Part shown: positions 8,652 through 54,497 of the stretch, one piece after another
How the letters are laid out: each line of letters opens with the position of its first letter
How positions within the stretch are numbered: position 1 is the first letter of the stretch
Source of the DNA: Candidatus Omnitrophota bacterium
Lineage (GTDB): Bacteria > Omnitrophota > Gorgyraeia > 2-01-FULL-45-10
Direction: 5' to 3'
Length of the DNA stretch: 55,280 bases
Assembly (NCBI GenBank): GCA_018823705.1
Contig: JAHJHP010000009.1
Coordinates: 1 to 55,280, forward strand
Notes under the pieces: generated by a model
The model's database searches: none
Told to the model about the DNA's origin: nothing
The model's input: only the letters and a program-made list of their open reading frames with translations
Position numbers and translations under genes: made by a program

Positions 8652-8656
8652 AGGCG

Positions 8657-9058
8657 CTACTCCTCTACTCTCTTGATCGTATATTGAGAGATATCGATTA
8701 TAAAATCGGGATCCGCGGTTTTAACATTCGGATATAGATAGTAAACGGCCTTTCTCGATTCCAGGGCTCCCTCGTCCATTCCTATTATATTATATGCGCT
8801 ATTTTCAGGCATCGTCGTCTTGCAATAAGTTAAAAAATCGTACAGCCTGTCGCCTGTTACATAGGAGTGTTTACCTTCAAGCGTCCTGGTCAGTAGATTT
8901 TTATAATCACGGATATTATTCTTTACGAAGAGCTCTCTCGCCAGGAATCCTATCCATAGGACAACCCAGACGATAAATAATATCTTTAAGATTGCTTCGG
9001 GCCTTCGGCCCTCGCAATGACGGTGTATTTTGTCCTTATACCACATTTTCAACGACAT
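8657..9058 (-). CDS. Small single-span membrane protein with a repeat-encoded N-terminus
   Basis: The 133-residue protein has one membrane helix (about residues 27-44, ILFIVWVVLWIGFLA) and a soluble C-terminal domain, probably periplasmic, containing MPENSAYNIIGM and the ending ISQYTIKRVEE. I do not recognise the family. Similar small proteins can accompany GT39-like enzymes, which fits its position directly upstream of one. The start ATG overlaps the stop of the upstream radical SAM gene (TGATG), which supports this start. Residues about 13-23 (HCEGRRPEAIL) are encoded by a palindromic repeat (8990-9022), and no clear in-frame ATG exists between the repeat and the helix. Confidence 0.65.
   Translation of the reverse strand: MSLKMWYKDKIHRHCEGRRPEAILKILFIVWVVLWIGFLARELFVKNNIRDYKNLLTRTLEGKHSYVTGDRLYDFLTYCKTTMPENSAYNIIGMDEGALESRKAVYYLYPNVKTADPDFIIDISQYTIKRVEE
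8990..9022. repeat. Short copy of the palindromic repeat inside a gene
   Basis: The sequence GATTGCTTCGG (8990-9000) followed by CCTCGCAATGACG (9010-9022) matches the right half of the element at 4761-4851. The centre is replaced by the hairpin GGGCC-TTC-GGCCC. It lies in frame within the gene at 8657-9058 and is translated as HCEGRRPEAIL. Confidence 0.85.
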
Positions 9059-36215: not shown

Positions 36216-38063
36216 TCATATATACTTTCTGAGCTTATAGTAAAATATCGCCGCATATTCCTGAATTATACCCTCGATCTGTTTAAACGTAACACGAGGG
36301 CCTTTCGCATAATATTCGCTCTCCTCGACCGGAATATAGAGAACTTTGGAATCGCTTAGATATTTATCGCACAGAAACTTCAGTCTCAGCATGTGATAGG
36401 GAGAGCTTATCACTATGATCTTCTTCCATCCGTTCTTTCCCGCAAGATCCTTAAGGTGTAGAATCATTTCATACGTATTATGCGATGCATCATCTATGCT
36501 GATAGCTTGATTGCTTACTCCCATGTTAACGGAGAGCGCTTTCATAACATGGGCTTCCTGCATCAAATATTTGTATCCACTTGAATACAGGATATGATCC
36601 GCAAAATGCTGATTATACAGCTTCACCGCCGTCTCTACACGCTCCTGATACCCCTGGCCTACTTTACCTGATTCTCCCACACCGCCTCCCAGGGCGATTA
36701 TGACATCTGAGCGCTGGGGCACGCTCGAGATCTGCAGTGGTTTTGCAATGAACCATATGAATGGAGAGTGGAACATCACAACGTAAATAATGCCAAAGGC
36801 TATCACGACAGGCATGAGCCTGTTCTTCGTCCGCTTATAGAGTCGTGACAGGTTCACCTTCCAGTTTGTCTCTCTTTGTTCCGCCTTTTTACGCTCAACG
36901 ACCTCTATCAGCGATGACATCTGTTCGATCCTGGTCGACCAGGAATTTTTCTTAGCCGCATCGATCGCAAGCGCCGCCTCTTCTTCTCCGGCAGGACGGT
37001 CTATCGCCTGTCTTACATTTTTGGAAAAATCATCCCGTGAGCCGGATATCCTGATTATACCGTTGTTTTCTTTATTGAATTTTCTCACTTCAGGAAGATC
37101 CGTTGAAACAACCGTCTTACCTACCGCAAGATATTCATTGAGCTTGGTCGGATACACATTTTTTGTGTACTCTGTCAGCTTATACGGAATCAGCGCGACA
37201 TCAAATTCCTTTACATACATCGGCAGCTCTTCCGCCTTCTTCTGTCCCAAAAAAAAGACGTTGGGCAGATCCCCCAGCATCTTGATATCGGACTGAATCG
37301 GTCCGCAAAAGACAAACGATACGTCTCGGTTTGCTTTCGCGATATGCCGCACAAGCTCAAAGTCTATCCATTTATGGATCCCGCCGATATATCCGGCTAT
37401 TGGCCTTATAATTTTTTTTATGTCGGACGGCGTCGGATGTGTCCCGTGAAGAACACCCTTGAACTTTTCAATATCGACACCGAAAGGAAAATAGTGCACT
37501 TTGTCGTCATGCCGCGAACAATGCTTAAAAAGCGCTTCGCTTGTAACGAAAACAAGATCTGCTTTGTTTATTAGAAGGCTTTCCGTCTCCCTTATCTTCC
37601 TTGCATCACGAGAGCTCGCCTGAAATGAGTCTATGCAGTAATACACCAGGACCTTCGGCTCTATCTTCTCTATGAGGTCAAGGCTAAGGCCCGTAGGAAG
37701 AAATGCCCATACTATCGGCTCGGAAAAACCCACTGTCCTCAGCCACTTAAAAAGGACGGAGAACATCAGCTTTTTATTTATGAATCTGGCTATCCTCAAA
37801 TACGGGAACGGCAGCACAAGCGGAGAGTACACATATAGCCCGTCCTCTATCTTTCTGATGCCGTGAAGTCCCCTTTTCCAGTTGGCGATGCGCCTCTTGA
37901 TCCTTCCGAGATCTCTTATCCGTGGGGCACGCACACCGGTATTCTCAATGAAAAGGACTCTGTTACCGTTCCTGGCAAACCGCGTCATTATCTCCTGATG
38001 GCCCTGCCACAAGAAATCCCAATCGATACTGGATACGCAAATTATATCCTGGTTCTTAAGCAT
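36216..38063 (-). CDS. Fusion: GT4-like glycosyltransferase + membrane helix + DUF218 (YdcF/SanA) domain
   Basis: The 615-residue protein has three parts. Residues 1 to about 390 are a GT-B glycosyltransferase that opens ICVSSIDWDFLWQGHQEIM and contains PTKLNEYLAVGKTVVSTDLPEV. Residues about 420-440 form one membrane helix (VVIAFGIIYVVMFHSPF). Residues about 449-615 are a DUF218 domain: IIALGGG, LYSSGYKY, DDASHNTYEM and SSPYHMLRLKFL. DUF218 proteins such as ElyC, SanA and YdcF are known envelope proteins linked to undecaprenyl-phosphate or peptidoglycan metabolism. The two domains would lie on opposite sides of the inner membrane. The promoter at 38090-38118 and a GGAGAGGAAC ribosome-binding site precede it. 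Confidence 0.88.
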   Translation of the reverse strand: MLKNQDIICVSSIDWDFLWQGHQEIMTRFARNGNRVLFIENTGVRAPRIRDLGRIKRRIANWKRGLHGIRKIEDGLYVYSPLVLPFPYLRIARFINKKLMFSVLFKWLRTVGFSEPIVWAFLPTGLSLDLIEKIEPKVLVYYCIDSFQASSRDARKIRETESLLINKADLVFVTSEALFKHCSRHDDKVHYFPFGVDIEKFKGVLHGTHPTPSDIKKIIRPIAGYIGGIHKWIDFELVRHIAKANRDVSFVFCGPIQSDIKMLGDLPNVFFLGQKKAEELPMYVKEFDVALIPYKLTEYTKNVYPTKLNEYLAVGKTVVSTDLPEVRKFNKENNGIIRISGSRDDFSKNVRQAIDRPAGEEEAALAIDAAKKNSWSTRIEQMSSLIEVVERKKAEQRETNWKVNLSRLYKRTKNRLMPVVIAFGIIYVVMFHSPFIWFIAKPLQISSVPQRSDVIIALGGGVGESGKVGQGYQERVETAVKLYNQHFADHILYSSGYKYLMQEAHVMKALSVNMGVSNQAISIDDASHNTYEMILHLKDLAGKNGWKKIIVISSPYHMLRLKFLCDKYLSDSKVLYIPVEESEYYAKGPRVTFKQIEGIIQEYAAIFYYKLRKYI

Positions 38064-40186: not shown

Positions 40187-41707
40187 CTATTTTCTTAACG
40201 CAACTTTCCTGAATCCGGTATTAAAGAATGACGACATCATTCTGATTGTCGAAAACACATTGCAATCGAACGAAATAAAGATCATGACTATCCATACGAA
40301 TGGTTCCACTATAAATAGTGCTGGTAAAAATACCAGATTTATACAAAAAGAGAGCTTCCCTTTTCTGTTATTAACTAGCCACATAATAAATCTGCCGGGC
40401 AGCAGCGGAGTTAACCTGATGACCTTATTTAAATATGTATTAGAATATTTTGTATAGCTCTTCTTTCTCGGGTCTTCGAACAGTATTCTGTCTTTTGATG
40501 CCTTTTCGTATATCTCTGTACCGTAATAAAAACACAGTGAAAATAATTGCAGCATGAAAGGCCTGGGTATCTTCAGGAGAACTTTTATCGTCTCAATAAC
40601 ATCACTTTCTGTTTCGTAAGGATTGTCAAGAATAACGTCATAAAGACAGGGGATATTGAATTTCTTTATTTGCAGCGCTGCCGTAACGAATGTCTCGTTC
40701 GACATAAATCTTCTGTAAATTTCCCGATTGATTTTTTGAGATCCCGTCTGAAGCCCCATGGTGATCCAGGACAACCCTATCTTCCTGAGCATAGATAACT
40801 TTTCTTCATTTACGTTATTTGGAGCAGTGCTGCAAACAAATCCTTTACCGCCTATCGCTTTCTTATACTGATCCGCAAAGTCTTGCATCCATTTGATATC
40901 CGAGTAAAAGAAGTTTTCATCCTGTATACTAATGTAGATAATATCCGGATATGCCGCGACCGCCATCGTTAATTCTTCGATGATATTGTGAACCGAGCGA
41001 TGTCTTACCTTGCTCGTTCCATATAGTTTGGCATAAAAGCTGTTGCTGCAATACGAACATGAAAAAGGGCACCCCCTCGACGATAATAAGCTATAAAATT
41101 TTCCGGAATACCTGGCGTATTTCTCAAAAATTGATTTATTCATCTCGCGAATTCGATTTTTATGCAGAATAAATGAGTCAGACGGCATATGCTCGGGGAA
41201 AGGCAGAATATCAAGATCATCGATATAGGGACGCGCCTCATTAATGACGATTTTATCCCCTGTTTTATAAGCCAGGTTTAAGATACTCAATGTTGGTTTA
41301 TTCGCGAATACCGCTTCTACATACTCCATAAATGCAACCTCAGATTCCCCCATAAAAACAAAATCGGCATATTCCAGGCATTGGGCAGGAGCAATAGACG
41401 GATGTATGCCGCCCCACACGACGGTTAGTCCCGGGAATTCATTTTTGATAAAAGACGTGAATTCTTTTGCATAAAAAAATTCGTCAGACATCAAACTGAT
41501 ACCCATAACGGCAGGGTTAATATCTTTTATGAATTTTGCTATCTTGTAATTATCATTCTCCCTGTAATGAGGCAGAAGCAGCATATAGGACTCGATTTTG
41601 TGCCCTCTTAAATATGAGTGAATGTATTTTAATCCGACTACGTCTGTATTGTCCTGAAATGTTACCAGGAGCACTTTATTTGTTTTATTGTTCATTGGAT
41701 TATTCAT
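40187..41707 (-). CDS. B12-binding-type radical SAM protein, AT-rich
   Basis: The 506-residue protein has a cobalamin-type N-terminal domain (VLLVTFQDNTDVVGLKYIHSYL, VVWGGIHPSIAPAQC) and the radical SAM motif RGCPFSCSYC (C213, C217, C220), then IQDENFFYSD and GLQTGSQKINREIY, a slight variant of the usual GxESGS. The C-terminal region has two hydrophobic stretches (LVFLPALFIVEPFVWIVMIF) that may attach it to the membrane, which is unusual in this family. The gene looks richer in A and T than its neighbours. Its ATG overlaps the stop of the GT39-like gene by one base. Substrate unknown. Confidence 0.88.
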   Translation of the reverse strand: MNNPMNNKTNKVLLVTFQDNTDVVGLKYIHSYLRGHKIESYMLLLPHYRENDNYKIAKFIKDINPAVMGISLMSDEFFYAKEFTSFIKNEFPGLTVVWGGIHPSIAPAQCLEYADFVFMGESEVAFMEYVEAVFANKPTLSILNLAYKTGDKIVINEARPYIDDLDILPFPEHMPSDSFILHKNRIREMNKSIFEKYARYSGKFYSLLSSRGCPFSCSYCSNSFYAKLYGTSKVRHRSVHNIIEELTMAVAAYPDIIYISIQDENFFYSDIKWMQDFADQYKKAIGGKGFVCSTAPNNVNEEKLSMLRKIGLSWITMGLQTGSQKINREIYRRFMSNETFVTAALQIKKFNIPCLYDVILDNPYETESDVIETIKVLLKIPRPFMLQLFSLCFYYGTEIYEKASKDRILFEDPRKKSYTKYSNTYLNKVIRLTPLLPGRFIMWLVNNRKGKLSFCINLVFLPALFIVEPFVWIVMIFISFDCNVFSTIRMMSSFFNTGFRKVALRK

Positions 41708-43563
41708 CAGTCACTGATCTCGTGTATGAAAAATTTCTCACCGGGGGTCCTGCGATATCCTATTCCACTGTCGTCAAACACTTTTATCAGCCGCAACTTC
41801 TTCTCCGGCAACACCGTTTCGATATCAAATGCACCGACTGTGCCATCCGGAGTCTTTCTGTGATATATATATCGCGGGCTATATTCGCGAATTAACTTTC
41901 GCAGCTGAGCCTCCTCATCCTTCCCGTTCCAGTGAAGTCTCCTTACGTTCTTATATTCCTCCGGCACGTAAACTTGCATATGATGCTGAGCGACGATCCT
42001 GGCGTCGGGGGGAACGTTCACCCTCCACCATCGCGCTATGGTAAAAACCGTGTCTTCACGTTGTCGGACTTTGTACAGATTGGATCGCGCCATATCAATA
42101 CCATAAACGCCTATATCGGCCAATAGTATTATGTACACGAGCAAACACAAATACTTTCTATTTATCTTTGTAAATATTTCGGCTGCCTGGACAGCCAGTA
42201 TCGCTGCAACCATAAAGAACGGGAGCATGTGATGGCCCGCAAGCCTGCCCATGGTGAATATCGAAGCAAAAAACGGCAGAAGAAATATAAGTAAAACGCA
42301 TCTCTTGTAGCGTCCTGCTCTATCGATAGCGCCGCCTCTCTCAAAAAGGCGCGTCTCGTTAATGATATATAGCCCGATAAACGTAAATATTACCGGATCG
42401 AACGAAATGATCTTTTCCCAGACACCTTTAAAAAATACCGTAAAGAACTCCGCCGCGGAGCGGATGCCCTGCACAACCTCGCCGCCGCTGAAGTCCATCC
42501 CGTTATATACGTAGGTATCAATGAAATGGCGTGGCATGGTAAACCATCTGGCTCCGAATACAGCGAAGGATACGCTGAAGACCGCGCCGACGATTATAGC
42601 GTAGGAATTTATACGATTGACATGTTGCATCACTTTGATGACCAAACGATTCTTTGATCGGTTCATGGTAAACATAAGAAATGAGACCGCTATGAGAGCG
42701 GCTGCCGCAAACCATACCAGATAGACGATCTTGTAGAGCGACATGCTTTGAACAAGGCCGTATTCCTGGTACAGGGTAAGGCCGTTGTGGCGCCTGACAT
42801 AAAAGAATATGGCAAGGAAAGGCGCCGCAATCATCGGGATAGACAATAACATCGGGAAGGTCCACGCAAACTTGGCCTCGGCTCTGGTAGTGACAAGTCC
42901 TTTGCCGGGTGCCGCGCGATAAATGTCACCGAGGTAAAGCGCTCCGACAATAACAGGCAGTAGAAAGATCCCTGAAAATTTCACAACCATAGCCGCGGCA
43001 GCGCACGCGACCGCAATCACGACATTACTTCGCGCGGGCTTTTCAACTATCCTGAGGGTATAGTCAAGTCCAACAATAATCAAAAGAAGGACCAGTGGTT
43101 CGGGCTTCAGGCTATTCATGAAATACAGCAACGCCGGCCTCACCGCCAGCAAGGCCACCGCGATAGCCTGACCCCACCCTTTTCCGAAATGTCGTCCTAT
43201 GAGCAGCCATAATGCAACGAGCGCGCCAAGCCACGACAGGAGGTGGATCCAGCGTAATATCAGGACCAGCGTACCCGGTCCTATCTTCATGAATTTTGAC
43301 AATACGGCGCGCGACAGGTCGGCAACATAGACCATCTCGAGTCCGTAATCGATATCCCACTGAAAGCTGTCACGCTTTTCGCCCGAATAGTAATACCACG
43401 CCTCATCCATGAGGCCGCCCTCATCGGCGCTAAAATATGTTATCAGGTCGGGATTCGAGCTGTTATTCGCGATGGTTGGAAATGTAATAGCGAGACTTCC
43501 AATGCATATCAATATCAGTGCTGCCAGGCTAAATTTTGAAGAGATCGAATTATTAGCTTTCAT
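41707..43563 (-). CDS. GT39-like polytopic membrane glycosyltransferase
   Basis: This large membrane protein has roughly a dozen helices. After the first helix (LAALILICIGSLAITFPTIA) a loop contains YFSADEGGLMDEAWYYYSG, in which the acidic residues occupy the catalytic position of PMT/ArnT-like enzymes, and a later helix loop has NSLKPEPLVLLL, a family feature. The last 130 residues are a periplasmic domain (RVNVPPDARIVAQHHMQVYVP). An open frame extends to 43638, but that start would overlap the upstream methyltransferase by 65 bases. The ATG at 43563 leaves a 10-base gap. The downstream radical SAM gene overlaps its stop by one base. Confidence 0.75.
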   Translation of the reverse strand: MKANNSISSKFSLAALILICIGSLAITFPTIANNSSNPDLITYFSADEGGLMDEAWYYYSGEKRDSFQWDIDYGLEMVYVADLSRAVLSKFMKIGPGTLVLILRWIHLLSWLGALVALWLLIGRHFGKGWGQAIAVALLAVRPALLYFMNSLKPEPLVLLLIIVGLDYTLRIVEKPARSNVVIAVACAAAAMVVKFSGIFLLPVIVGALYLGDIYRAAPGKGLVTTRAEAKFAWTFPMLLSIPMIAAPFLAIFFYVRRHNGLTLYQEYGLVQSMSLYKIVYLVWFAAAALIAVSFLMFTMNRSKNRLVIKVMQHVNRINSYAIIVGAVFSVSFAVFGARWFTMPRHFIDTYVYNGMDFSGGEVVQGIRSAAEFFTVFFKGVWEKIISFDPVIFTFIGLYIINETRLFERGGAIDRAGRYKRCVLLIFLLPFFASIFTMGRLAGHHMLPFFMVAAILAVQAAEIFTKINRKYLCLLVYIILLADIGVYGIDMARSNLYKVRQREDTVFTIARWWRVNVPPDARIVAQHHMQVYVPEEYKNVRRLHWNGKDEEAQLRKLIREYSPRYIYHRKTPDGTVGAFDIETVLPEKKLRLIKVFDDSGIGYRRTPGEKFFIHEISD

Positions 43564-43573
43564 GCGCCAGGCC

Positions 43574-44401
43574 TTATCCGTCTTTTTTCTTCCTGCATAC
43601 GACCGTTTGAAGTATACCAAAGCGCGACGGAAACGCAAAGAGCGCCCCTGCCCCGCACATGTAGGCGACCCTCATCAGCGTTCCGCACGACGGATAATTT
43701 ATAGCCCGGAGAGGATAGTTATGGTTCTTCCGGCTAATAACTTCAAGGCCGTGACATTCCAGCAGTTTTCGGAGAGAAGTATTCGTGAAATGATGGAGAT
43801 GCGCCAGCTCATACAGGCCTTCATAGGGGGCCTTGATGCCCATTTTTTTGAGCAAACGGGCCGCGCTATAAAATACTCCACCGGTATTATCGGTCATTAT
43901 CACGAGTATGCCGCCGGGAGCCAGAAGTTCCTTAATATTTTCAATAAATAGGTTAATATCGTCGACATGCTCTATCGCCGCAAGGCTGGTAACAGCATCT
44001 AACTTCATTCCGATATTTTCCCGCAGGATATCTCCCCGCACAAACGCAATGCCGGGATAGCTGTTGGGCCGTAAGTCTATGCCATAGAGATCAAGAGACG
44101 GGTCTTTCTTTCTCAAATATTTGAGGAAGTCCCCCGTACCGCATCCAACGTCAATGAGCTTTAAACCGTCCTTCCTGATCCGCGAGATTACCTGAGAGTG
44201 GATGAAATCGAATAGCCGATAATTGGGGTGATTGAACCAGTTGGCGTGGGTCTCGTAGTAGTCATCAGTATAACGGGTGCGCTGCTCTTCTGTCACAACG
44301 GTGAACGAATGATGGCATTTATTACACCCGTATCTGTTAAGAACACTGTCTTGCAGAACAACGTCTTTATCACTGTTGCAGATGGAGCAGGTTTTCCCCA
44401 T
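43574..44401 (-). CDS. SAM-dependent methyltransferase with N-terminal zinc ribbon
   Basis: The 275-residue protein starts with CSICNSDKDV and CNKCHHSF, a four-cysteine zinc-binding N-terminus, followed by class I methyltransferase motifs LIDVGCGTGDFLKYL, YGIDLRPNS, AIEHVDDINLF and GGILVIMTDNTGGV. The region after residue 190 (YEGLYELAHLHHFTNTSLRKLL) is shared with sugar C- and O-methyltransferases that carry this zinc module. The methyltransferase at 49405-50250 has the same architecture, so the pair are relatives. It is positioned between the amidotransferase fusion and a GT39-like gene. The acceptor is unknown. Confidence 0.87.
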   Translation of the reverse strand: MGKTCSICNSDKDVVLQDSVLNRYGCNKCHHSFTVVTEEQRTRYTDDYYETHANWFNHPNYRLFDFIHSQVISRIRKDGLKLIDVGCGTGDFLKYLRKKDPSLDLYGIDLRPNSYPGIAFVRGDILRENIGMKLDAVTSLAAIEHVDDINLFIENIKELLAPGGILVIMTDNTGGVFYSAARLLKKMGIKAPYEGLYELAHLHHFTNTSLRKLLECHGLEVISRKNHNYPLRAINYPSCGTLMRVAYMCGAGALFAFPSRFGILQTVVCRKKKDG

Positions 44402-44423: not shown

Positions 44424-46385
44424 CTAATAGAGCTTAGGAATCTCGTTTATGCGCAGCAGTACCTCTTCAAGATTGAAGCCTATCAGCTGGCCAAACTCCT
44501 GCAGCATCTCTAGACGCGGTTTATTATCCTCCTCGGTAAGCTTCATTGCCTCATCCCGAGTGATAAGGCCTTCGCGGACCTGGTTGCTGCGAAAATTGTC
44601 AAATTCGGAGAACCCCGCGACCGTGTGATAAATATAATCTATAAAAGCGGTATGGCCGTCTCCCATCCGCCACTGGTTCTTGCCGTATCTTTCATTAGCC
44701 TCCCAGCCGTATTCTTCTTTTAGGGTCCGCTCTATAAGTTTCTCATCCCACGGAAGATAACGGAACAAGTACACATAGTCATCCTTGCTTATAAAGCTCG
44801 CGTAATACGCAAAAATGCTGTCGAGGAAAGACTCGTTGATATAGGCCGGATTCGTGACATATTCTTTTATGTACCAGAGAGCGATACGGGCCTTTACCAT
44901 CGTGTTATAATTATACAACTTGGTATTATTAACAAGATCCTGGTCTACCCCGCAAAATCCGATTTTGAACTCCATCTGCTCCAGCTGCTGCCCCGCGGCA
45001 AACACGGTAAGCTTTATACCCGTCTCCTTTCGAAGCTGTCTTCCATAATAATAAAACATCTTATCGCCTGCCATAAAGAGCGGCACCATGCCGAGCGAGG
45101 GCTTCTTAAGCCATGCGTATATGTTCTTTCTGATATATCGGCGTTTGGCGTGGATATCCGCGGCGCGGATAAGGTGCTCCACGCCAAGTTTACCGGTTAT
45201 TCTCGCCTGATTCCGCCTGGCAAGGTCAGTTACCATCGCCCAATCATATGTATACGCGATCGGGTGCATATTAAATTCTGTCTTCAGCACATGCAGGCCA
45301 TATGAACTGTCCCTGCCCCCGCTAAATCCTACGATACAATCCGGCTCGCCATTCTTTGACCGGTATCTGGCCAGGACTTCCTCGAGAGCTTCTTTGCCCA
45401 GAAATTCCTGTTTTTTGTACTTTCTGCAGTAGTTACATACACCATCTTCATCGAACGTAATGAATGGGTATGTATGCGGTAGTACGCACTTCGTGCAGCG
45501 GCGCAGCGCCGTATGGGTCACGCTCAGGTCGATGATATCGTAGATCTTTATATTGCTGCTTATCATCGGCGATTCCGCATGATCATCAGATAACTTAAAG
45601 ACTTGCGGCGCCAGGTCTTCGGCATTTATGACAGCGGCGGTGAACGGTTCCAGCTGTCTGACGCTCTTCACATCATAAATGAGCTTAAGAGAATTTTTCC
45701 GCAAGAATCCCTCGACGATGAACCGTTCTGACCCAAACACAAAGACACCCTGTCTGGCGTCGGACCAATAATACAGGGCCCCCATATTGGTGGCAATAAC
45801 CATAGAGGCGGACAGATCACATAAAAATCCTATGGAAGCAGAGCCTTCTACTTCTCGATAGATACGCCTTATAGCCCCAGGGACACCTTTTTCTATTTCG
45901 TAATATTTATTAAGCAGATTATATAATACCCATGTGTCGGATCCCGAATGACTGCCCGGCAGGTCTTTAAGCTCAGGGTGTTGCTGCCGCAGATACTCAT
46001 CGTTGGTGATGATACCATTATGAACTCCCACCATATGGCCGGCGTTTATAGGCTGGTTGTTCTCGGCAATAGCCTGGGAGCCATTCGTGACAAGCCGTGT
46101 GTGGCCGATAGCGATAATGGGCGCTGTTATGATCATCTTCCCGGAGCGTGGCGCGTCGACAACGCTGGAATCTATATAACTCTTAAATGACGCGCTCTTA
46201 AGCATAGCAGTCGGATTTTTCGCTTTTTTATAGACCGATATTTTGCTCCCCGAAAGGATGGAAAATCCGGCAGCCTCACATCCGCGCCTCTGCGAGAGCT
46301 TGACCAGACTCCCGAGCGCGCCCGTAAGCTCTCCCTTAGTTATGTCAGCGTTATTGTTCGCTATGAAACCGAATATTCCACACAT
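44424..46385 (-). CDS. Fusion: class II glutamine amidotransferase + PP-loop N-acetyl-sugar amidotransferase
   Basis: The 653-residue protein combines two activities. Residues 1 to about 280 are an Ntn-type glutaminase with catalytic C2 (MCGIFGF), GHTRLVTNG, NNQP, HNGIIT and SGSDTW, which releases ammonia from glutamine. Residues about 296-653 resemble WbpG/PseA-type N-acetyl-sugar amidotransferases: the cysteines C297, C300, C317 and C320 (CTKC, CNYC), and the ATP pyrophosphatase loop SGGRDSS (355-361). In known systems, WbpG works with separate HisH- and HisF-like partners. Here ammonia could pass directly between domains. I infer formation of an acetamidino or amide group on a sugar of the surface glycan. 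Confidence 0.9.
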   Translation of the reverse strand: MCGIFGFIANNNADITKGELTGALGSLVKLSQRRGCEAAGFSILSGSKISVYKKAKNPTAMLKSASFKSYIDSSVVDAPRSGKMIITAPIIAIGHTRLVTNGSQAIAENNQPINAGHMVGVHNGIITNDEYLRQQHPELKDLPGSHSGSDTWVLYNLLNKYYEIEKGVPGAIRRIYREVEGSASIGFLCDLSASMVIATNMGALYYWSDARQGVFVFGSERFIVEGFLRKNSLKLIYDVKSVRQLEPFTAAVINAEDLAPQVFKLSDDHAESPMISSNIKIYDIIDLSVTHTALRRCTKCVLPHTYPFITFDEDGVCNYCRKYKKQEFLGKEALEEVLARYRSKNGEPDCIVGFSGGRDSSYGLHVLKTEFNMHPIAYTYDWAMVTDLARRNQARITGKLGVEHLIRAADIHAKRRYIRKNIYAWLKKPSLGMVPLFMAGDKMFYYYGRQLRKETGIKLTVFAAGQQLEQMEFKIGFCGVDQDLVNNTKLYNYNTMVKARIALWYIKEYVTNPAYINESFLDSIFAYYASFISKDDYVYLFRYLPWDEKLIERTLKEEYGWEANERYGKNQWRMGDGHTAFIDYIYHTVAGFSEFDNFRSNQVREGLITRDEAMKLTEEDNKPRLEMLQEFGQLIGFNLEEVLLRINEIPKLY

Positions 46386-46403
46386 ACCGTAACCCCTCTC
46401 TCC

Positions 46404-47819
46404 TTAGGCGGCGGGATAAAATAGTTTTTTGTAATCAACCGTAGAATGCGTCAATCCGAACCTCTCCTTTGCCTCATCCTGTTTTACCGGATCATCAAAA
46501 GACCGCAAAAGCTCATCTGTTAATTCGTCATAAGCGACATGCATAACGCCGCTCATCCCATCGAGATCAATATAAGAAAGATAGTCGGGATGGTTTAGCT
46601 GGACGACAGGGCGTCCGATCAAAAGAGCTTCCTCCAAAACCGTGGTGCTCATTCCTATAACCGATACGGCTCCCGCTATATCCGAGCGCAAAGAAGTATC
46701 GCCCGAGACCTCGATGGCCCCGGAGCTCCTGCTCTGATCCACCCATCTCCGCAATTCTCTGCCTGGTTCCGCGTGTGAATGCATCCGTAACCTTAATGGC
46801 AATGATACGTTGCTTTTTTTCAGGAGATCGCGCAACGAACCGATCACCGCCTCATTGTCAAAACGCGCCAGTCCCGAAACAAACAGATAGTAATGGCCGT
46901 CTTTGCCGGCAGGCTCCGGCCGAGACGACTTCCACTGGCTGTATCTACAACTGCACCCCATCAAAAAAGTCGTCTTTGGAAAATACGGCTTGAGAAGACG
47001 AATAACCCTTTCTTCAAATGCATAAAAAACGTCGGGTAATGCCAGGCCCTGCAAAGTTTCCTCCGGATAAGAAAAATACCAGAGTTTACCGCTTGAAACG
47101 GACGCATGTTGTACGGTATATGTTCTTATGTCATGTTTTGAGGCGATGTGCCAAACCACCCTCGCATATGAATGCATCTCATGGATACATCCGATCTTTT
47201 TTATCCGGCGATGCTCTATGATCTCGTTCAGTATCCGCTGCAAGTATAAATTGCGTTGCCATTGCAAACTAAAAACCCATGAATACCATTCCAATAAAAT
47301 CAATGCTCTACTGACAATGCTGCCCCGGATCTTAAAAAAAGCGTATATACCGCAGACCGTCATTATACAGACGATCCTCAGGGAAGCAAGAGCCGATATC
47401 GGTATAAAAAGTTTCGCGCGGCTGCCGCATTGTTGAACAGGCCCGACAACCAGCATTGCATCATCATCGTCGGTATCTACGTATTTTGTCTTGTAACTAT
47501 CACCTGCAGCCGCATATCCACATTCAGAAGTTACGATCAGAATGCTATCTTTTATCGTTCCGTACAAGCCATAGCCAAACCTGGGCGGCCGCAGTGTCCG
47601 CATCAATCCCTTTAACAGGCCCGTTACCGATGCGATCAGCAACTGAAAAAACAATTTGAAGAGATGCCGCTGCCTGTATCCGCTGTGCCACAAATTTGAC
47701 GCGTCGGGGCTCCTGACACTTACGCTGGACGAAAAGATAAGCGGAACCAGATCCCGTGAAGCCGCTCCGACCGCGGCGCCGACAAATCTGGCGGCAAGCC
47801 GCTGGAAATCAGTACCCAT
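46404..47819 (-). CDS. Probable GT-B surface-carbohydrate glycosyltransferase
   Basis: The 471-residue protein is not confidently assigned. Its centre has CIHEMHSYARVVWHIASKHDIRTYTVQHASVSSGK, where VQHA resembles the VQHG motif of capsule and surface-carbohydrate glycosyltransferases. The C-terminal third has LRMHSHAEPGRELRRW, SVIGMSTTVLEEALLIGRPVVQLNHPD, a typical nucleotide-sugar-binding end of GT-B enzymes, with a preceding VSGDTSLRSDIAGA. The N-terminal 150 residues include hydrophobic stretches (LFKLFFQLLIASVTG) but no clear signal peptide. Position beside the amidotransferase fusion suggests that it adds the aminated sugar. Confidence 0.5.
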   Translation of the reverse strand: MGTDFQRLAARFVGAAVGAASRDLVPLIFSSSVSVRSPDASNLWHSGYRQRHLFKLFFQLLIASVTGLLKGLMRTLRPPRFGYGLYGTIKDSILIVTSECGYAAAGDSYKTKYVDTDDDDAMLVVGPVQQCGSRAKLFIPISALASLRIVCIMTVCGIYAFFKIRGSIVSRALILLEWYSWVFSLQWQRNLYLQRILNEIIEHRRIKKIGCIHEMHSYARVVWHIASKHDIRTYTVQHASVSSGKLWYFSYPEETLQGLALPDVFYAFEERVIRLLKPYFPKTTFLMGCSCRYSQWKSSRPEPAGKDGHYYLFVSGLARFDNEAVIGSLRDLLKKSNVSLPLRLRMHSHAEPGRELRRWVDQSRSSGAIEVSGDTSLRSDIAGAVSVIGMSTTVLEEALLIGRPVVQLNHPDYLSYIDLDGMSGVMHVAYDELTDELLRSFDDPVKQDEAKERFGLTHSTVDYKKLFYPAA

Positions 47820-47851: not shown

Positions 47852-49405
47852 TTACCGTGATTTAAAGATCCTGTGCAAAACGTTAAAAAGCTTATCTCTC
47901 CATGGGCCATCTTTCTCACATAGCCTGACAAGAGGATAGGCGATCTTAGGGACTTTTCTATAAAGGCTAAAGGTCTTAGCGAGCCCTACGATCTCCGCCG
48001 GAGGTAACTGCGGCATATTCAGATAGCTCTCAGTGTAGCGATAGTTTTCGCATTCATCTGGCAGAAAACCGGCTTCTACAGCCATCTTGCGGATAGCCGT
48101 GCCCTCCCATGGCTGCAGGATCATAACGCTCGAATTCTGCGCCCTGGCCTTTCGATTCAGCTCAATAGTCTCAAACACGTTACCTCTTGTCTCAAAAGGC
48201 ATACCTACCATATTAAGTGTACTCGTGCGGATACCATACTTATTGAGAATGCTTATGCCTCTGATTATCTGGCTGTTCGTCATCTTCCTGTTCAGCACCC
48301 TTCTACGGATATCCTCGCTTCCGGATTCAATTCCGGCAGACACGTTTACACAACCCATCTCCTTAAGAAGCTTTGCCTTGTGCTCGGTAACCATATCGAG
48401 CCTGGCGGCAATAAGAAATGGAAGGGCTATCTTTTTATAGCCCTGAGCAAACTCCTCCATCTCCTTATCGCTATATAGAAAAAATTCCTCATCCCAGAAT
48501 TTCATCATCTCAAGGTCGTATTTATCTTTAAGAAAAGATATCTCCTCTATAGCGCGCGGAATGCTCTTTTTACGAAAATAGCGCCCCTTCCCTTTGTATA
48601 GTTCCTGCAGCCGGTCGTTATTGCAATAGGAGCACCTGTGAGGGCAGCCTCTCGAGAGCTCGAGATGTCCATAGCGATATACTTTACCGCAAAAAGGCTT
48701 GTAAAAATGGCGTTTATCAAAAAGTGTCCAGTCAGGAAAAGGTAGCGCGTCAAGGTCTTCGATAAGCCTGATATCATTCTTCACCACCCCCGAAGAAGTC
48801 TTGACCCAAAGGTTACGGACAGCATCATAGGGTTTCCCCTCCCGGATGCGCAGGCACAGGTCTCGAAACGGCGCCTCCCCCTCACCAACGCATACGATAT
48901 CAACGTTCGCATTTTTTATGAACTTTTCAGGATTCATCGTCACGCATTTTCCGCCGATAATCAATGGGCAGTTTTTTCGGGAAATACCGTCCACGAGAGC
49001 CATGGCCAGAGGATAATTGTAAGAGGTCGGGACTGTAACGGCTATGATATCCGGATCAAACTCCTTTATCTTAGCGTTAAGATCGCCTATATGATCCCGC
49101 TCCTCACGGACAACGCCGTATTTTGTCATGTCAGCCGGCAGGAATTCTCCCACTTTCTCGTTTTTCTGTCGGTCTTCATAATTGGTTATCTTGTAGTATG
49201 TTGTATCGAATATATCGACCGTACACTGTTCCTTCCGCGCTATAGCGATAAGCGATGAAAGCCCTATCGGCAAGAAACCCTCAATGCCTGACATGGGGTT
49301 TACAAATAGTATCTTTATATTAACGATATTCCGGGACTCATCCGCGGCGCCTGGAATTCCGGATACTTCTTCATTGGAATTGATCATGCTCTGTTCTCCT
49401 TGCAT
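47852..49405 (-). CDS. B12-binding-type radical SAM protein
   Basis: The 517-residue protein has a cobalamin-type domain (IKILFVNPMSGIEGFLPIGLSSLIAIARKEQ, IIGGKCVTMNPEK) and the cluster motif RGCPHRCSYC (C254, C258, C261), followed by FWDEEFFLYSDKEM and GIESGSEDIRRRVL. The late segment LQPWEGTAIRKMA replaces the usual PFPGTEL. The first ATG (49405) overlaps the upstream stop (TAATG). The ATG at 49387, with AAGGAG upstream, is a strong alternative and removes only six residues. The family is known for methylation or ring-modifying reactions. Substrate unknown. Confidence 0.9.
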   Translation of the reverse strand: MQGEQSMINSNEEVSGIPGAADESRNIVNIKILFVNPMSGIEGFLPIGLSSLIAIARKEQCTVDIFDTTYYKITNYEDRQKNEKVGEFLPADMTKYGVVREERDHIGDLNAKIKEFDPDIIAVTVPTSYNYPLAMALVDGISRKNCPLIIGGKCVTMNPEKFIKNANVDIVCVGEGEAPFRDLCLRIREGKPYDAVRNLWVKTSSGVVKNDIRLIEDLDALPFPDWTLFDKRHFYKPFCGKVYRYGHLELSRGCPHRCSYCNNDRLQELYKGKGRYFRKKSIPRAIEEISFLKDKYDLEMMKFWDEEFFLYSDKEMEEFAQGYKKIALPFLIAARLDMVTEHKAKLLKEMGCVNVSAGIESGSEDIRRRVLNRKMTNSQIIRGISILNKYGIRTSTLNMVGMPFETRGNVFETIELNRKARAQNSSVMILQPWEGTAIRKMAVEAGFLPDECENYRYTESYLNMPQLPPAEIVGLAKTFSLYRKVPKIAYPLVRLCEKDGPWRDKLFNVLHRIFKSR

Positions 49406-50250
49406 TACCTTTTTCGGGCTATTATATACATGATATCGTATAAGTTCAAATAGAATTGCGCTCTACCCAATCCGCTCTTGCGCAAAATATCACAAAACCA
49501 TCTTCCTCCCTTATTGGCAAGCGATATCCTGTGCAAAGTCATATCGATACTGCGATAGAATCCGCAATAACCGCTATATATAACGTCAAATCCGTTATTA
49601 TCGAGCAGTTTACTGAGCGTCTGCTTGGAAAAATAATGAATGTGCGTAGGCGCATTCATAATGCGCCATTTATTCTTTTTCATGCGGGCGTTCAGGCTTC
49701 CGACATCACCGGTTGTTATAGCTACCAGCGCACCCTTATCCATCATATTCTTTGATATCTTAGATAAGCACCCGGCAGGGTCGCTCAAATGCTCTATCGT
49801 GTCCCACAGGCAAACGACGTCGAACTTCTGCCCATTAAAATCGTGTGGCAAAAAGTCGTCGGTTACCACGTCAAGTCCGAGCTCATCCCTGGCGTACGCG
49901 ACGCCGTCCGCTGTAACATCAATGCCCTTGAGAGTGCCAAAGTAAGATCTGGCGACATCAAGAAAAAATCCGTAAGCACAGCCGATTTCAAGAAGTCTCT
50001 TGTGCCTCATGGGATCTAAGAATTTGCGCAACTTCTTAAGGCGTAGCTTAAAATTATCCCGGGTGATCTTTTTATCGGCAAGATAATCGCTATATTCACC
50101 ACCGAAAAAGTAGTTCTTACCGTATAATTCCGACAGCTTATTATTCTGCGATGGCATATTACAAAATACGTGACCACACCCCAAACAGCGCAAGATACCC
50201 GGATAGGCCTGTTCCACATCGACGCGGTCACATATGATGCATCTGTTCAT
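49405..50250 (-). CDS. SAM-dependent methyltransferase with N-terminal zinc ribbon
   Basis: The 281-residue protein opens with CIICDRVDVEQ and CLGCGHVF, a four-cysteine zinc module, then class I motifs LLEIGCAYGFFLDVA, LKGIDVTADGV, LWDTIEHLSDP and DKGALVAITTGDVGSLNARM. The residues HIHYFSKQTLSKLLDNNGFD are characteristic of sugar methyltransferases. The architecture matches the methyltransferase at 43574-44401. It is coupled by a 4-base overlap to the upstream GtrB-like GT2, and by one base to the downstream B12-type radical SAM gene. The acceptor is unknown. Confidence 0.87.
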   Translation of the reverse strand: MNRCIICDRVDVEQAYPGILRCLGCGHVFCNMPSQNNKLSELYGKNYFFGGEYSDYLADKKITRDNFKLRLKKLRKFLDPMRHKRLLEIGCAYGFFLDVARSYFGTLKGIDVTADGVAYARDELGLDVVTDDFLPHDFNGQKFDVVCLWDTIEHLSDPAGCLSKISKNMMDKGALVAITTGDVGSLNARMKKNKWRIMNAPTHIHYFSKQTLSKLLDNNGFDVIYSGYCGFYRSIDMTLHRISLANKGGRWFCDILRKSGLGRAQFYLNLYDIMYIIARKR

Positions 50251-51191
50251 TTTACAGCCGCCTCCGTTACTATGAATGGCGGGCGCCCTTTAGTCTGATC
50301 ATAGATTCTGCCGACGTATTCGCTCAATATGCCTATTGCAACCAATTGAACGCTACCCAGGAAACAGACAGCCATGACAATATCTGTGTATCCTGGCGGC
50401 ACCGGTATATTTACTATTCCAAGCACTTTAAGGACCCATATAGTTAATACCATGATTATATACGCTGAAGAGCAACCTAGTATCACAAGAGCGAAGAGCA
50501 TCACCAGGTGCAGGGGATATCTTCCGAAGGAGAATATACCATCGAGGGCAAGCCTGGAGAGGGATCGAAATGAATATTTAGGAAGACCGCTATGCCTCTT
50601 TCCGACATTGTAAGGTATCCCCTGCTGCCTGAAACCGATCCAACTTACCTGACCGCGCAAGAATTTGTGGCACTCAGGCATATCGAGTAATACGCTAAGG
50701 ACTTTTTTGTCGAGAAGCCTGAAGTCAGACTGACCGAAACTCAAACTTAACCCCGATACTTTTGAGATGAACCGGTATGAGGCCTTGACGATCAGATTTT
50801 TAAGGAAAGGTAAATTAGCGTTTTCCTTCGTCGTATAGACAACCTCTGCGCCATTACGCCACATCTCAACCATCTTAGGTATCAGTGAAGGCGGGTGCTG
50901 CAAATCCGCATCCATGGTTATGCAAGCATCGCCTGCAGCCTTGGTCATCCCCGCGAAGATCGCACACTGATGCCCGAAGCTTCGCGAAAGTGAAAGATAG
51001 CCGACCTTCGGGTCCGCATTACGCAACCTCTTTACCGCGTCCAGCGACCTATCGGTGCTTCCGTCATCGACGTATATCATCTCGTAATCTACGCCTGCTT
51101 CAGAGCATGCCTGTTTCACCTGATTATAAAGCTCTTCTATGTTGCTCTCTTCATTATGCACAGGGAAAACTATCGATATTATATTCTTCAT
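50247..51191 (-). CDS. GtrB-like GT2 (undecaprenyl-phosphate sugar synthase) with two membrane helices
   Basis: The catalytic domain opens IISIVFPVHNEESNIEELY and has VDDGSTDRSLDAV and MDADLQHPPSL. The C-terminal part has two membrane helices (LVMLFALVILGCSSAYIIMV and IVMAVCFLGSVQLVAIGILSEYVGRIYDQ), ending RPPFIVTEAAVK. The arrangement matches the enzyme at 25052-25978 and bacteriophage GtrB. I infer transfer of a sugar to undecaprenyl phosphate at the inner membrane. An open frame extends to 51227; the ATG at 51191, just after the upstream stop, matches the family start. Confidence 0.88.
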   Translation of the reverse strand: MKNIISIVFPVHNEESNIEELYNQVKQACSEAGVDYEMIYVDDGSTDRSLDAVKRLRNADPKVGYLSLSRSFGHQCAIFAGMTKAAGDACITMDADLQHPPSLIPKMVEMWRNGAEVVYTTKENANLPFLKNLIVKASYRFISKVSGLSLSFGQSDFRLLDKKVLSVLLDMPECHKFLRGQVSWIGFRQQGIPYNVGKRHSGLPKYSFRSLSRLALDGIFSFGRYPLHLVMLFALVILGCSSAYIIMVLTIWVLKVLGIVNIPVPPGYTDIVMAVCFLGSVQLVAIGILSEYVGRIYDQTKGRPPFIVTEAAVK

Positions 51192-51193
51192 AT

Positions 51194-51376
51194 TCAGCTT
51201 GCCTTTCTGCGCGGTAATACCGCGCATGATTTTTCAATATCATCTGCCTCTATATCCAGCAACTCAACGCAATGACTGTGATCCTTGATTTCATGAGCGG
51301 TATAGGCCATTCTGAATAAAGGAAAGAGATGTTCCATATCACCCAGCATCATAGGATTTATCAATAATACGTTCAT
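51194..51376 (-). pseudogene. 60-residue remnant of a B12-type radical SAM N-terminus (probable)
   Basis: The short frame starts with ATG overlapping the stop of the SPASM gene (ATGA) and ends 2 bases before the next gene. It begins MNVLLINPMM, then PLFRMAYTAHEIKDHSH and CVELLDIEADDIEK. These parts match, with degeneration, the opening of the cobalamin domain of B12-type radical SAM proteins: LLINP, PPLGLAYIAAYLKxxGHxVxLLD. The rest of the domain and the radical SAM core are missing. A shortened leftover of such a gene is the simplest view. A functional small protein is possible because the frame is intact and well placed. Confidence 0.5.
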
Positions 51377-52422
51377 ATCAACTTATCCAAAAGCCCTTCT
51401 GCGTAGTCATCAATATCGCTTAAATGATTCACGCCATCCATATATTGGCAATCTGCACATGGTGAAATCATATGCTTTTTATTGGTAAGATGCAAAACCC
51501 TGAATTCGCGCATTTTACCGCCGTTCCAGATATCAACAAGGCTATCCTGTTTTGCGTCTCCAATGACTGTTCCGAAACTCCAGTCAACACAACACACTGA
51601 GACTGTGCCATCAAAATTTACCGACATGGTCTTGAACGGCTGGGGGCAAACTTTTCTGCCAATTTTTAGAGGCGTTATCCCATCCATGCCAGTTGTAGGC
51701 AAAAGTCCCATTTTGAAGTCTTTTTTCCCGGAAAGGCTCCATCCTATCACTGTATCCACGCCTACTGAGTCCGATATCGGACTAAAATCAGATAGAAAGC
51801 GCTTTTTCTCATCGGCCGTCAGGTTGATATCAAGGATCTTGGCATGAATTTTAAGACTGCTATTCCTTTTGCACTTGAGCTTATAGAGAAATGCGACATT
51901 CTTCCGTATCTTTTTGTAATCAGAGAAAGTCTTTGTAAATTTTTTGTAGCCTGAATCACTTACATGTTCGACGGATATCCTGATTGCGTCGAGACCGGCA
52001 TCGACAACCTCCCTTGCGCGCTCTTTTGTGATCAGGGAACCGTTTGATGTTGTTTCGACTGATCGAGCTATTTTCATCTTCTTCGCATACGCGACCATTT
52101 TGCTAAAGTCTTCATTGACGAACGGCTCCCCGTCCTTGTAGAGATATAATTTTTCGATCTTACCCTTAAAACCGATGACGCCGTCTACGACGTGCTTGAA
52201 GATTGGGAAAGGCATGATTCCGACCTTTCTGCCTACGGAGCTCAATAAGCTTCTGTCTCCGGTCGGGCAGAATGAACACATGAAATTGCACACACTTGAC
52301 GGGTCTATTATAAGAGATAGCGGAGCCTCTAGGGGCAATATCTCCGAAAGCTTCTTATAGCCTTCATTGCCTGTCTGCCCCGTACACCGTATCCTATTTT
52401 TTGATCTTTTGATCGATCTCAT
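51373..52422 (-). CDS. SPASM-type radical SAM protein
   Basis: The 349-residue protein has the radical SAM motif CNFMCSFC (C45, C49, C52). The C-terminal SPASM-like auxiliary cluster region is CPQPFKTMSVNFDGTVSVCC, followed by IGDAKQDSLVDIWNG and ISPCADCQYM. There is no cobalamin domain. The start chosen, the ATG at 52422, overlaps the upstream gene by 29 bases, and the ribosome-binding site is weak, so the true start may be slightly later. It lies in an AT-rich stretch with the AAC(3)-like and DUF4910 genes. The substrate may be a sugar or a lipid-linked intermediate. Confidence 0.85.
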   Translation of the reverse strand: MRSIKRSKNRIRCTGQTGNEGYKKLSEILPLEAPLSLIIDPSSVCNFMCSFCPTGDRSLLSSVGRKVGIMPFPIFKHVVDGVIGFKGKIEKLYLYKDGEPFVNEDFSKMVAYAKKMKIARSVETTSNGSLITKERAREVVDAGLDAIRISVEHVSDSGYKKFTKTFSDYKKIRKNVAFLYKLKCKRNSSLKIHAKILDINLTADEKKRFLSDFSPISDSVGVDTVIGWSLSGKKDFKMGLLPTTGMDGITPLKIGRKVCPQPFKTMSVNFDGTVSVCCVDWSFGTVIGDAKQDSLVDIWNGGKMREFRVLHLTNKKHMISPCADCQYMDGVNHLSDIDDYAEGLLDKLI

Positions 52423-53167
52423 ATAGAAGAAAAGGATCTTCTTTCATTTTCTTAACGGTAAATCTGTACAATTCATCCGCGTTTAGCAGCTTCACAAAAC
52501 TTCCGTTAGGGAATATAGTCATTTTAACGAATCCGGCCTGTTCAAAAAGCTTACTCATCGGTTCTACATTCGTTTTCACCCCAAGTTCCAATTTTCTAAC
52601 AAAAATGGAATATGTTTTCGAGGATAACTTGCCATTTTCGTCAGTATAGAGGCCTCTAAAATCCTTATGATACCTATAGTCGACATGCAGCATCTCTTCT
52701 ATATGATGAAAAAACGTCATGCTACGTTGAATGGAAATATCTATCAGCATGATCTTCCCGTTGCGCCTTCTTAATTCACCAAAGATGGATTCGTCGGAAT
52801 AAGCGCTTTCATTGTCTATCTTCGCAAAATCCTCTTTCAGTCTTCCAATAACAGCGAATGAATAGACGGGATGCTTCGTCCTCACAGACTCCGGCAGTTT
52901 CATAGCATACGTAGTCAAGCTACCCATCTGGCTCTTTGTTTCCTTGATTGAAAAAGACTCACCGGAACAAAAGCCAAAGTTAAAGGTTGGAAAAATCAGC
53001 GTGCCCGACTCTCCTACTTTGTTAAGCATATATTTATAGAATATTTCGCAAAAATCTTCCGGCCTGCCAGGCGATATAACTTGTGAAATTAGAGTAATAT
53101 CGCTATGTATAAGGACAACATCACCCTTTTTTATTCCTAGGATATCTAGCGATTCAATCGTAGTCAT
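52394..53167 (-). CDS. AAC(3)-fold N-acyltransferase
   Basis: The protein resembles the AAC(3) aminoglycoside 3-N-acetyltransferase family: GDVVLIHSDITLIS, GTLIFPTFNFGF, then MGSLTTYAMKLPESVRTKHPVYSFAVIG, which holds the family's R-x-HP-x-x-S motif. Near the middle is GKIMLIDISIQRSMTFFHHIEEML, in which the histidines may be catalytic. In glycan loci such enzymes acylate amino sugars and are not antibiotic-resistance genes. A GTG at 53182 is also possible; the ATG at 53167 has GGGGTGG seven bases upstream. It adjoins the DUF4910 gene. Confidence 0.85.
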   Translation of the reverse strand: MTTIESLDILGIKKGDVVLIHSDITLISQVISPGRPEDFCEIFYKYMLNKVGESGTLIFPTFNFGFCSGESFSIKETKSQMGSLTTYAMKLPESVRTKHPVYSFAVIGRLKEDFAKIDNESAYSDESIFGELRRRNGKIMLIDISIQRSMTFFHHIEEMLHVDYRYHKDFRGLYTDENGKLSSKTYSIFVRKLELGVKTNVEPMSKLFEQAGFVKMTIFPNGSFVKLLNADELYRFTVKKMKEDPFLLYEIDQKIKK

Positions 53168-53189
53168 TCTCTGCCACCCCACAATCGGC

Positions 53190-54497
53190 TCATCTGCTTA
53201 CCAATCCGCAAGCTATGAACCTCTCAATGTAATCCCTCGTCTTCCAATATTCGAGGTCCAGCTTTTCCGCTATATTGAAAACACTGTTTTTGCCGTCAAA
53301 ATGCTGCATGATCAAGTATATGTTCGCATTGATGGCCGCATCTTCTTTAGGGCTAACCCATAGGCCATACCGGGTTAAGAATGCTGGCCCCGTAAACTTA
53401 CGTCGAGGGATGTAATCAGACGCAAAGATGCGCGCGATCTCCTCTACCACATCCACTGTCTTTTGAAGCCTGTCTTCATGGATAATATCCATGTTGTCCG
53501 CGCTGGTATGATACTCCTTATAAGGATAACGGCTTATCGAGATACAGGGAACATCAACACCAGGCCCGTTTATGACCTTTTCATCATTTCCTACAACCTT
53601 CAGAAATGCGCCCTCCCTGAAACCTGGTTCAAGCCTTCTTAGCACATAGCGCGCTATTCTATCTATTTTATGATCGCCCTGCCAGGACTTTTGAAGGACT
53701 AGAGAATTCCTGTTCCCCGCCATTTCAATAAATATACCCGCCTTGAGACGTTTAACAACTTCTTTGTGATGACTTAGATAACATATACTGCCTATCGTTT
53801 CCGGGCAAAAAAGAAAGCGGATCGCGCTGCTTCCTTCCGGTAACGGTCTGGAAACAAGTCTTCGCGCGATCTCAACGGCAACAGCAACTCCTGATAGCCC
53901 ATCGTTCGCCTGGTACGGGTGATCTATGTGGCCGCATATTATGAGATCTCCGGACTGCTTATCGTGCCGCGGACCTGAAGAAAGGCGTGCAATACCGACT
54001 TTAAGCCCCTTTTTTGCCGCGGTAATGAACTTGGCGCGAATGACTACATGAAACCGCCCCTTCCTGGGCAACCTGTCATATTCGTTCTTTGTAAGAGAGA
54101 ACCCCCACTCCTTCACGTAGTATGCATACTGCCATGGTATCGCGGATGGGATCTTTTCTGAATAATGCAGGTGTGTCTTTAATTCATCCCATGTCATTCG
54201 TTTTTGTATCGGAACTGAGTAGGATACAAGATGCATAGGGTTCAAGTTGAAATCCGCCACTCGCCTGCCATCCTCAAGCTCTATATATGCCTCGTCGACC
54301 TCATAGCGTGGAGGTACCTGCCATGTCCACGCGCGCGACATCGGGGCATAGCATTCGATCGAATATTTTGCCGAGGCCGGTATGCGGCTACCGATCATTT
54401 TTAGCGCCTTATCGGTATCATTATGGACCAAAGTCCGGTAAAGAGGATATAGCTCTCTAACTATTTCTTTTATCATATGTTTTCTACTTTTCACCAT
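53190..54497 (-). CDS. DUF4910/DUF2172 aminopeptidase-like protein with winged-helix tail
   Basis: The 435-residue protein has three parts. The N-terminal part has the DUF4910-type sequence TWQVPPRYEVDEAYIELEDG and NPMHLVSYSVP. The central part has an M28-like metal site, CGHIDHPYQANDGLSG, and later HTSADNMDIIHED. The last 60 residues (INANIYLIMQHFDGKNSVFNIAEKL) form a winged helix. The layout is that of aminopeptidase-like proteins frequent in sugar-biosynthesis loci whose reaction is not established. The ATG at 54497 has GGAGG eight bases upstream. Its gene lies between the radical SAM gene off the edge and the AAC(3)-like gene. Confidence 0.87.
   Translation of the reverse strand: MVKSRKHMIKEIVRELYPLYRTLVHNDTDKALKMIGSRIPASAKYSIECYAPMSRAWTWQVPPRYEVDEAYIELEDGRRVADFNLNPMHLVSYSVPIQKRMTWDELKTHLHYSEKIPSAIPWQYAYYVKEWGFSLTKNEYDRLPRKGRFHVVIRAKFITAAKKGLKVGIARLSSGPRHDKQSGDLIICGHIDHPYQANDGLSGVAVAVEIARRLVSRPLPEGSSAIRFLFCPETIGSICYLSHHKEVVKRLKAGIFIEMAGNRNSLVLQKSWQGDHKIDRIARYVLRRLEPGFREGAFLKVVGNDEKVINGPGVDVPCISISRYPYKEYHTSADNMDIIHEDRLQKTVDVVEEIARIFASDYIPRRKFTGPAFLTRYGLWVSPKEDAAINANIYLIMQHFDGKNSVFNIAEKLDLEYWKTRDYIERFIACGLVSR

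Follow-up and report, generated by a model that had tools for sequence, protein, structure and literature searches.

The window analysed here, a stretch of 55,280 nucleotides from a Candidatus Omnitrophota bacterium, encodes a protein of 653 amino acids that joins a class II glutaminase to a PP-loop ligase of the N-acetyl sugar amidotransferase (NASAT) type. Judged from sequence, this architecture is widespread and uncharacterised, and the protein is probably a single-chain sugar amidotransferase. The reading frame called in the original prediction proved to be real: it lies at 44424-46385 on the minus strand and yields the full 653 residues. Translation begins with MCGIFGFI at an ATG, 5′ of which lies the Shine-Dalgarno-like AAGGAGAGAGG. 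As the stop-to-stop frame around the ORF comprises just 659 codons, the Met-Cys start is nearly forced, and with the Shine-Dalgarno-like sequence before the ATG this means that Cys2 is almost certainly exposed once the methionine is gone. Dozens of genomes carry the fusion over its entire length, and its architecture is therefore beyond chance. Its features are the following:

46393-46405, minus strand: Shine-Dalgarno-like sequence AAGGAGAGAGGGG, 5′ of the fusion ATG
44424-46385, minus strand: fusion ORF, 653 aa, class II glutaminase plus NASAT-like PP-loop ligase (domain searches, conservation, model)
45696-46385, minus strand: GlmS-type class II (Ntn) glutaminase domain, residues 1-230 (Pfam GATase_6/GATase_7; GlmS profile; Foldseek)
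46380-46382, minus strand: codon of Cys2, N-terminal nucleophile after removal of Met1 (invariant in 32/32 fusions; aligns with GlmS Cys1)
46095-46097, minus strand: Arg97, aligned with the catalytic-pocket Arg of GlmS (R73)
46014-46019, minus strand: Asn123-Gly124 (HNG motif), aligned with the oxyanion-hole N98-G99 of GlmS
45936-45938, minus strand: Asp150, aligned with the glutamine-binding D123 of GlmS
45522-45668, minus strand: variable inter-domain linker, residues 240-288, with low model confidence near 271-280
44427-45521, minus strand: PP-loop ligase domain of WbuX/WbpG/NASAT type, residues 289-653 (TIGR03573, 140.2 bits; 8WEX)
45426-45497, minus strand: tetra-cysteine site C297-C300...C317-C320 (zinc in 8WEX)
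45306-45323, minus strand: PP-loop SGGRDS, residues 355-360, ATP pyrophosphatase signature

The N-terminal half had been read as a class II glutaminase with Cys2 at its active site, and this reading holds. Pfam detects GATase_6 (1.1e-11) and GATase_7 (1.2e-6), the sequence is GlmS-like across residues 1-200, and a profile of the domain retrieves GlmS from the PDB at 3e-19. The active site is complete: besides the N-terminal cysteine, the GlmS-type Arg, Asn-Gly and Asp that define the class II (Ntn) type are all present, aligned with the GlmS residues of the catalytic pocket (R73), the oxyanion hole (N98-G99) and glutamine binding (D123). Cys2, Arg97, Asn123-Gly124 and Asp150 are invariant among the 32 aligned fusions and are kept in the split ORFs too.

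For the C-terminal half, the assignment to WbpG/PseA-like PP-loop enzymes with a four-cysteine site was likewise borne out. TIGR03573 (WbuX) matches residues 296-641 at 1.1e-40 with 140.2 bits, below its curated cut-off of 203.2; the fusions of other genomes also score under that cut-off. Against the PDB, this half finds the Legionella NASAT 8WEX at 5.2e-14. NASATs are marked by the PP-loop SGGxDS and by CxxC...[GN]xCxxC, a tetra-cysteine site that binds zinc, and the accessible part of the paper on NASAT structure describes no glutaminase fusion (PMC10607449). In the window protein the corresponding elements are SGGRDS and C297/C300/C317/C320, in the form CxxC...GxCxxC. Together with Cys2, these motifs are invariant or nearly so among the 32 aligned fusions, and the tetra-cysteine and PP-loop residues belong to 21 positions common to fusions and standalone NASATs. 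Some 45 further positions hardly vary across the fusion clade yet lack conservation among standalone NASATs, which argues for a single common substrate type. A confident AlphaFold2 model computed with the 32 fusion sequences reached a mean pLDDT of 88.7 and a pTM of 0.82. Foldseek related it to GFAT/GlmS, AsnB, PurF and 8WEX, one half resembling GFAT/GlmS and the other 8WEX.

Three homologues, on plasmids of Solidesulfovibrio and Agrobacterium, bear three conflicting names in public records: '7-cyano-7-deazaguanine synthase', 'hypothetical protein' and 'glucosamine 6-phosphate synthetase'. The first of these names, as well as the position of NASATs near QueC in a family network (PMC13329287), would suit a QueC-like enzyme with nitrile or deazaguanine chemistry. 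We regard such an enzyme as hardly credible, since the fusion has no QueC family match at E <= 0.01 and its gene context is that of surface glycans throughout. At the same threshold there was no match to the Asn_synthase domain or to TIGR03108, and both the QueC and the AsnB identities were rejected on the absent domain matches.

Several known systems share parts of this design. WbpG, WbuX and PseA (TIGR03573, 8WEX), which work with HisH and HisF2/AglZ, resemble the fusion in SGGxDS, tetra-cysteine site, ligase fold and location in glycan clusters. They obtain ammonia from the separate class I pair HisH and HisF, whereas the fusion would obtain it from its own class II glutaminase; the fusion further differs in its sub-cut-off score, its separate clade, its own conserved residues and its ability to occur side by side with the classical set. 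One chain that combines a class II glutaminase with a PP-loop sugar amidotransferase is already known as WbpS/WbqG, which makes uronamides: the AsnB-type WbpS is required for the uronamide of Porphyromonas gingivalis (PMC7468200), and a homologue acts in Helicobacter pullorum (PMC6025236). Like the fusion, WbpS, WbqG and PGN_1234 (AsnB type, TIGR03108-like) combine in one chain a class II glutaminase and a PP-loop ATP pyrophosphatase, with a sugar substrate and a role in surface glycans; unlike it, they have as PP-loop half an asparagine-synthase domain that lacks the NASAT tetra-cysteine site, and they amidate carboxylates. GlmS/GFAT, the closest relative of the glutaminase half by profile and fold, also delivers ammonia to a sugar-acting domain in the same chain, but its acceptor half is an ATP-free sugar isomerase and that of the fusion a PP-loop ligase. 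Asparagine synthetase B and beta-lactam synthetase similarly pair a class II glutaminase, or its relic, with a PP-loop synthetase, although their PP-loop family and substrates are different.

Neither a characterised protein nor a paper with the exact fusion was found in the open-access literature, where absence is no proof, and the architecture recurs widely. Full-length fusions are present in 30-odd other genomes, members of the window's phylum and plasmids included. The genome scan located the full fusion in Rhodospirillales, Pelagibacteraceae, a patescibacterium, Bacteroidota, Deferribacterota, Chloroflexota, Geomonas (Thermodesulfobacteriota), Verrucomicrobiota and Pseudomonadaceae, that is, in at least seven named phyla plus that of the window, many of the records being metagenome-assembled genomes. 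The sequence from the Bacteroidota bin (L015) groups within those of Pelagibacteraceae in the tree and may reflect a binning error. In the window's phylum, 13 of 384 genomes match the fusion clade, eight of them with full fusions (the window's counted), and TIGR03573 matches 154 of the 384 at 1e-20. The fusion is also present on plasmids of Solidesulfovibrio and Agrobacterium, and phage records gave no match. On the Agrobacterium sp. RAC06 plasmid, predicted to be mobilizable (L201, L203), one glycan cluster combines the fusion with two asnB genes and with a NASAT, hisH and HisF2, and so contains three kinds of amidation system.

Phylogenetically, fusions, split pairs and lone ligases form one clade (100/99) on a branch of 2.28 changes per column. 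Placement of the fusion among the standalone NASATs, whose sampling was limited, fails in favour of this separate clade. Split pairs and lone ligases are nested inside it, which fits a single fusion followed by losses, an order of events read from a tree rooted at its midpoint and with weakly supported basal forks. In two relatives (L100, L101) the same halves are encoded by adjacent, separate genes that overlap by 4 bp or lie 62 bp apart; this arrangement suggests that glutaminase and ligase cooperate physically. The ligase occurs without the glutaminase half in two bacterial genomes (L102, L103) and on a predicted viral contig (L120); elsewhere in the two bacterial genomes there was no glutaminase of the clade, just weaker matches of other kinds. 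The window fusion itself groups with Pelagibacteraceae sequences (99/97) and is absent from three genomes of the same genus, which suggests that it was acquired horizontally.

Some further observations concern the separate halves. The lone ligase of the predicted viral contig (119.5 kb, IMG/VR) occupies positions 7962-9074, among apparent sugar-nucleotide genes, and many other viral contigs (L121-L199) have ORFs that match mainly the glutaminase half, weakly, at 22-32% identity. One ORF of 830 aa (L074, 1450-3942; G106:C23) has two tandem TIGR03573 matches, and a frame of 810 aa in G229 has one listed match.

The original prediction saw in the fusion a self-contained enzyme whose class II domain takes the place of the HisH/HisF ammonia supply. 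Its first part is well supported at the level of sequence by two complete domains, co-conserved motifs and adjacent split halves, all of which point to a chain that would feed itself; the replacement stood only in part. In its favour, the genome of the window has, apart from the fusion, no NASAT beyond a weak match, its sole strong HisF match adjoins a HisA-like match and scores under the WbuZ cut-off, and there is no recognisable second HisF. Among 33 fusion genomes, many of them incomplete drafts, a standalone NASAT above cut-off was absent in 23 and present in 10. Against the replacement stand the separate clade, the sub-cut-off score and coexistence: three genomes (L030, L031, L035) have a standalone NASAT, HisH and HisF2 no farther than about 5-6 kb from the fusion, and a Pseudomonas (L115) has a standalone NASAT-HisH-HisF set in the fusion's own cluster. 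A fusion that shares its cluster with the complete classical set is no plain substitute for it, and in these four genomes and in Agrobacterium, at least, it must have another job.

If the fusion were nonetheless a class II substitute for WbpG-HisH-HisF in which substrate and product are unchanged and the ammonia source alone is swapped, three Pseudomonas (L032-L034) would fit: their fusion lies in clusters with WbpB, and their genomes yielded neither a standalone NASAT nor a second HisF. Co-occurrence with the classical set in at least five clusters weakens this explanation; the depth and separateness of the fusion clade, with its clade-specific residues, and the failure to find WbpB in the window's phylum also speak against it, and we consider it improbable.

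Clues to the substrate come mostly from Pseudomonas. In one genome (L034), genes for WbpB (1.3e-169 to 3OA2) and WbpE (1.1e-192 to 3NU7), which flank a WbpD-like gene, are about 9 kb from the fusion, and the genome has no other NASAT and one HisF only. In three Pseudomonas genomes with WbpB at 9-11 kb from the fusion, the latter is the sole NASAT-type protein found, with one HisF each; in L020, WbpB- and WbpD-like genes are upstream of the fusion. Within 219 Pseudomonas genomes, WbpB was found in 29 and the fusion in 4, all four of which have WbpB (P = 0.0019 with the seed genome left out); a standalone NASAT is also present in two of the four. In both Pseudomonas and Agrobacterium, a GT4 gene comes next after the fusion. 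Behind it, either at once or with other genes in between, stand genes for an initiating sugar transferase, a NeuD/PglD-like acetyltransferase and a DegT aminotransferase, joined in Pseudomonas by a PglF-like gene.

The presence of WbpB in 4/4 of the fusion-bearing Pseudomonas sampled, probably signifying a diacetamido-uronic acid pathway, leaves room for a uronamide synthase, whose ligase half would amidate the C-6 carboxylate of a uronic acid, as WbpS does, instead of an N-acetyl group. At least one of those clusters (L115) already has a full acetamidino set, and the uronamide-forming WbpS is likewise built from a class II glutaminase and a PP-loop domain. The PP-loop half, however, is of NASAT type, with the tetra-cysteine site and no Asn_synthase match, and AsnB-type amidotransferases are encoded near the fusion in L020, L023, L200 and L201, which makes a uronamide role less likely there. 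On balance we find uronamide synthesis rather unlikely, while not negligible.

WbpB was found in none of the 384 genomes of the window's phylum, a search that had no positive control inside the phylum, but a related WbpB query did match seven genomes elsewhere. The substrate of the window fusion is thus probably other than the WbpABDE sugar, and the WbpABDE product was rejected as a universal substrate. Recurrent neighbours of the fusion in this phylum are GT2, methyltransferase, large membrane proteins, B12-radical SAM proteins and a carbamoyltransferase with a DUF3473 deacetylase. Carbamoyltransferase-like genes with adjoining deacetylase-like genes are seen near the fusion or split pair in L100, L101, L108 and L109, Pfam confirming both in L101 only.

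In the window, the surroundings of the fusion are as follows:

41707-43638, minus strand: PMT_2-type membrane glycosyltransferase
43574-44401, minus strand: SAM-dependent methyltransferase, downstream of the fusion, 22 bp away (Methyltransf_23, 3.7e-21)
46404-47819, minus strand: gene of 471 aa, upstream of the fusion, 18 bp away, no Pfam family, probably co-transcribed
47852-49405, minus strand: B12-binding radical SAM protein
50247-51227, minus strand: GT2 glycosyltransferase, polyprenyl-phosphate-sugar-synthase-like, same cluster
52394-53182, minus strand: Antibiotic_NAT (AAC(3)-like) N-acetyltransferase, same cluster

Of the two flanking genes named beforehand, the methyltransferase was confirmed, whereas the GT-B label of 46404-47819 found no confirming match, with no Pfam family and a TIGR04326 match far below threshold. 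At other loci, too, the fusion has large membrane proteins as neighbours, and B12-radical SAM genes recur in its vicinity in L003, L008, L009, L020, L028 and L108. Among the window genes we recognised neither HisH and HisF2/AglZ partners nor a pathway specific to an N-acetyl substrate; the Antibiotic_NAT gene is a possible candidate for the maker of the N-acetyl group. This gene adjoins a DUF4910/DUF2172 peptidase-like gene, the pair spanning 52394-54497 on the minus strand. Elsewhere in the window, an ORF of 615 aa (36216-38063, minus strand) carries a DUF218 domain at the C-terminus of a group 1 glycosyltransferase, and radical SAM genes dot the surface-glycan region (9058-55279, minus strand), B12-binding ones at 9058, 40187 and 47852 and others at 39043, 51373 and 54509.

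The reading that we favour, with some confidence, is that the fusion would be a self-contained amidotransferase of surface-glycan synthesis that depends on glutamine and ATP, likely with an acetamidino product and with a substrate of its own, on a route parallel to WbpG-HisH-HisF and WbpS. Given the complete active site, Cys2 of the Ntn domain would hydrolyse glutamine; the PP-loop domain, by analogy with the NASAT family, would adenylate the carbonyl oxygen of a sugar substituent, with release of PPi and then of AMP. Ammonia would travel within the chain, as the fusion and its split-gene relatives suggest, making a HisH/HisF pair unnecessary. The product would most likely be an acetamidino group, formed from the N-acetyl group of a nucleotide- or lipid-linked sugar, and the clade, by running alongside the two known routes, would go beyond mere replacement. 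More tentatively, and falling a little short of what we would call probable, it may represent a further class of sugar amidation, of single origin and sharing one conserved type of substrate, passed horizontally among at least seven phyla, using a widely available intermediate other than that of WbpABDE, and operating beside NASAT-HisH-HisF and AsnB/WbpS in one glycan cluster.

Amidated sugars alter the charge that O-antigens, capsules and flagella carry. Three proteins are needed in the acetamidino system described so far, and a single-chain version would offer a simpler enzyme for this chemistry. Assignment as a single-chain amidotransferase would correct the conflicting database names, and the fusion would predict amidated glycans in, for example, Pelagibacteraceae, where it is often the sole enzyme of its type.
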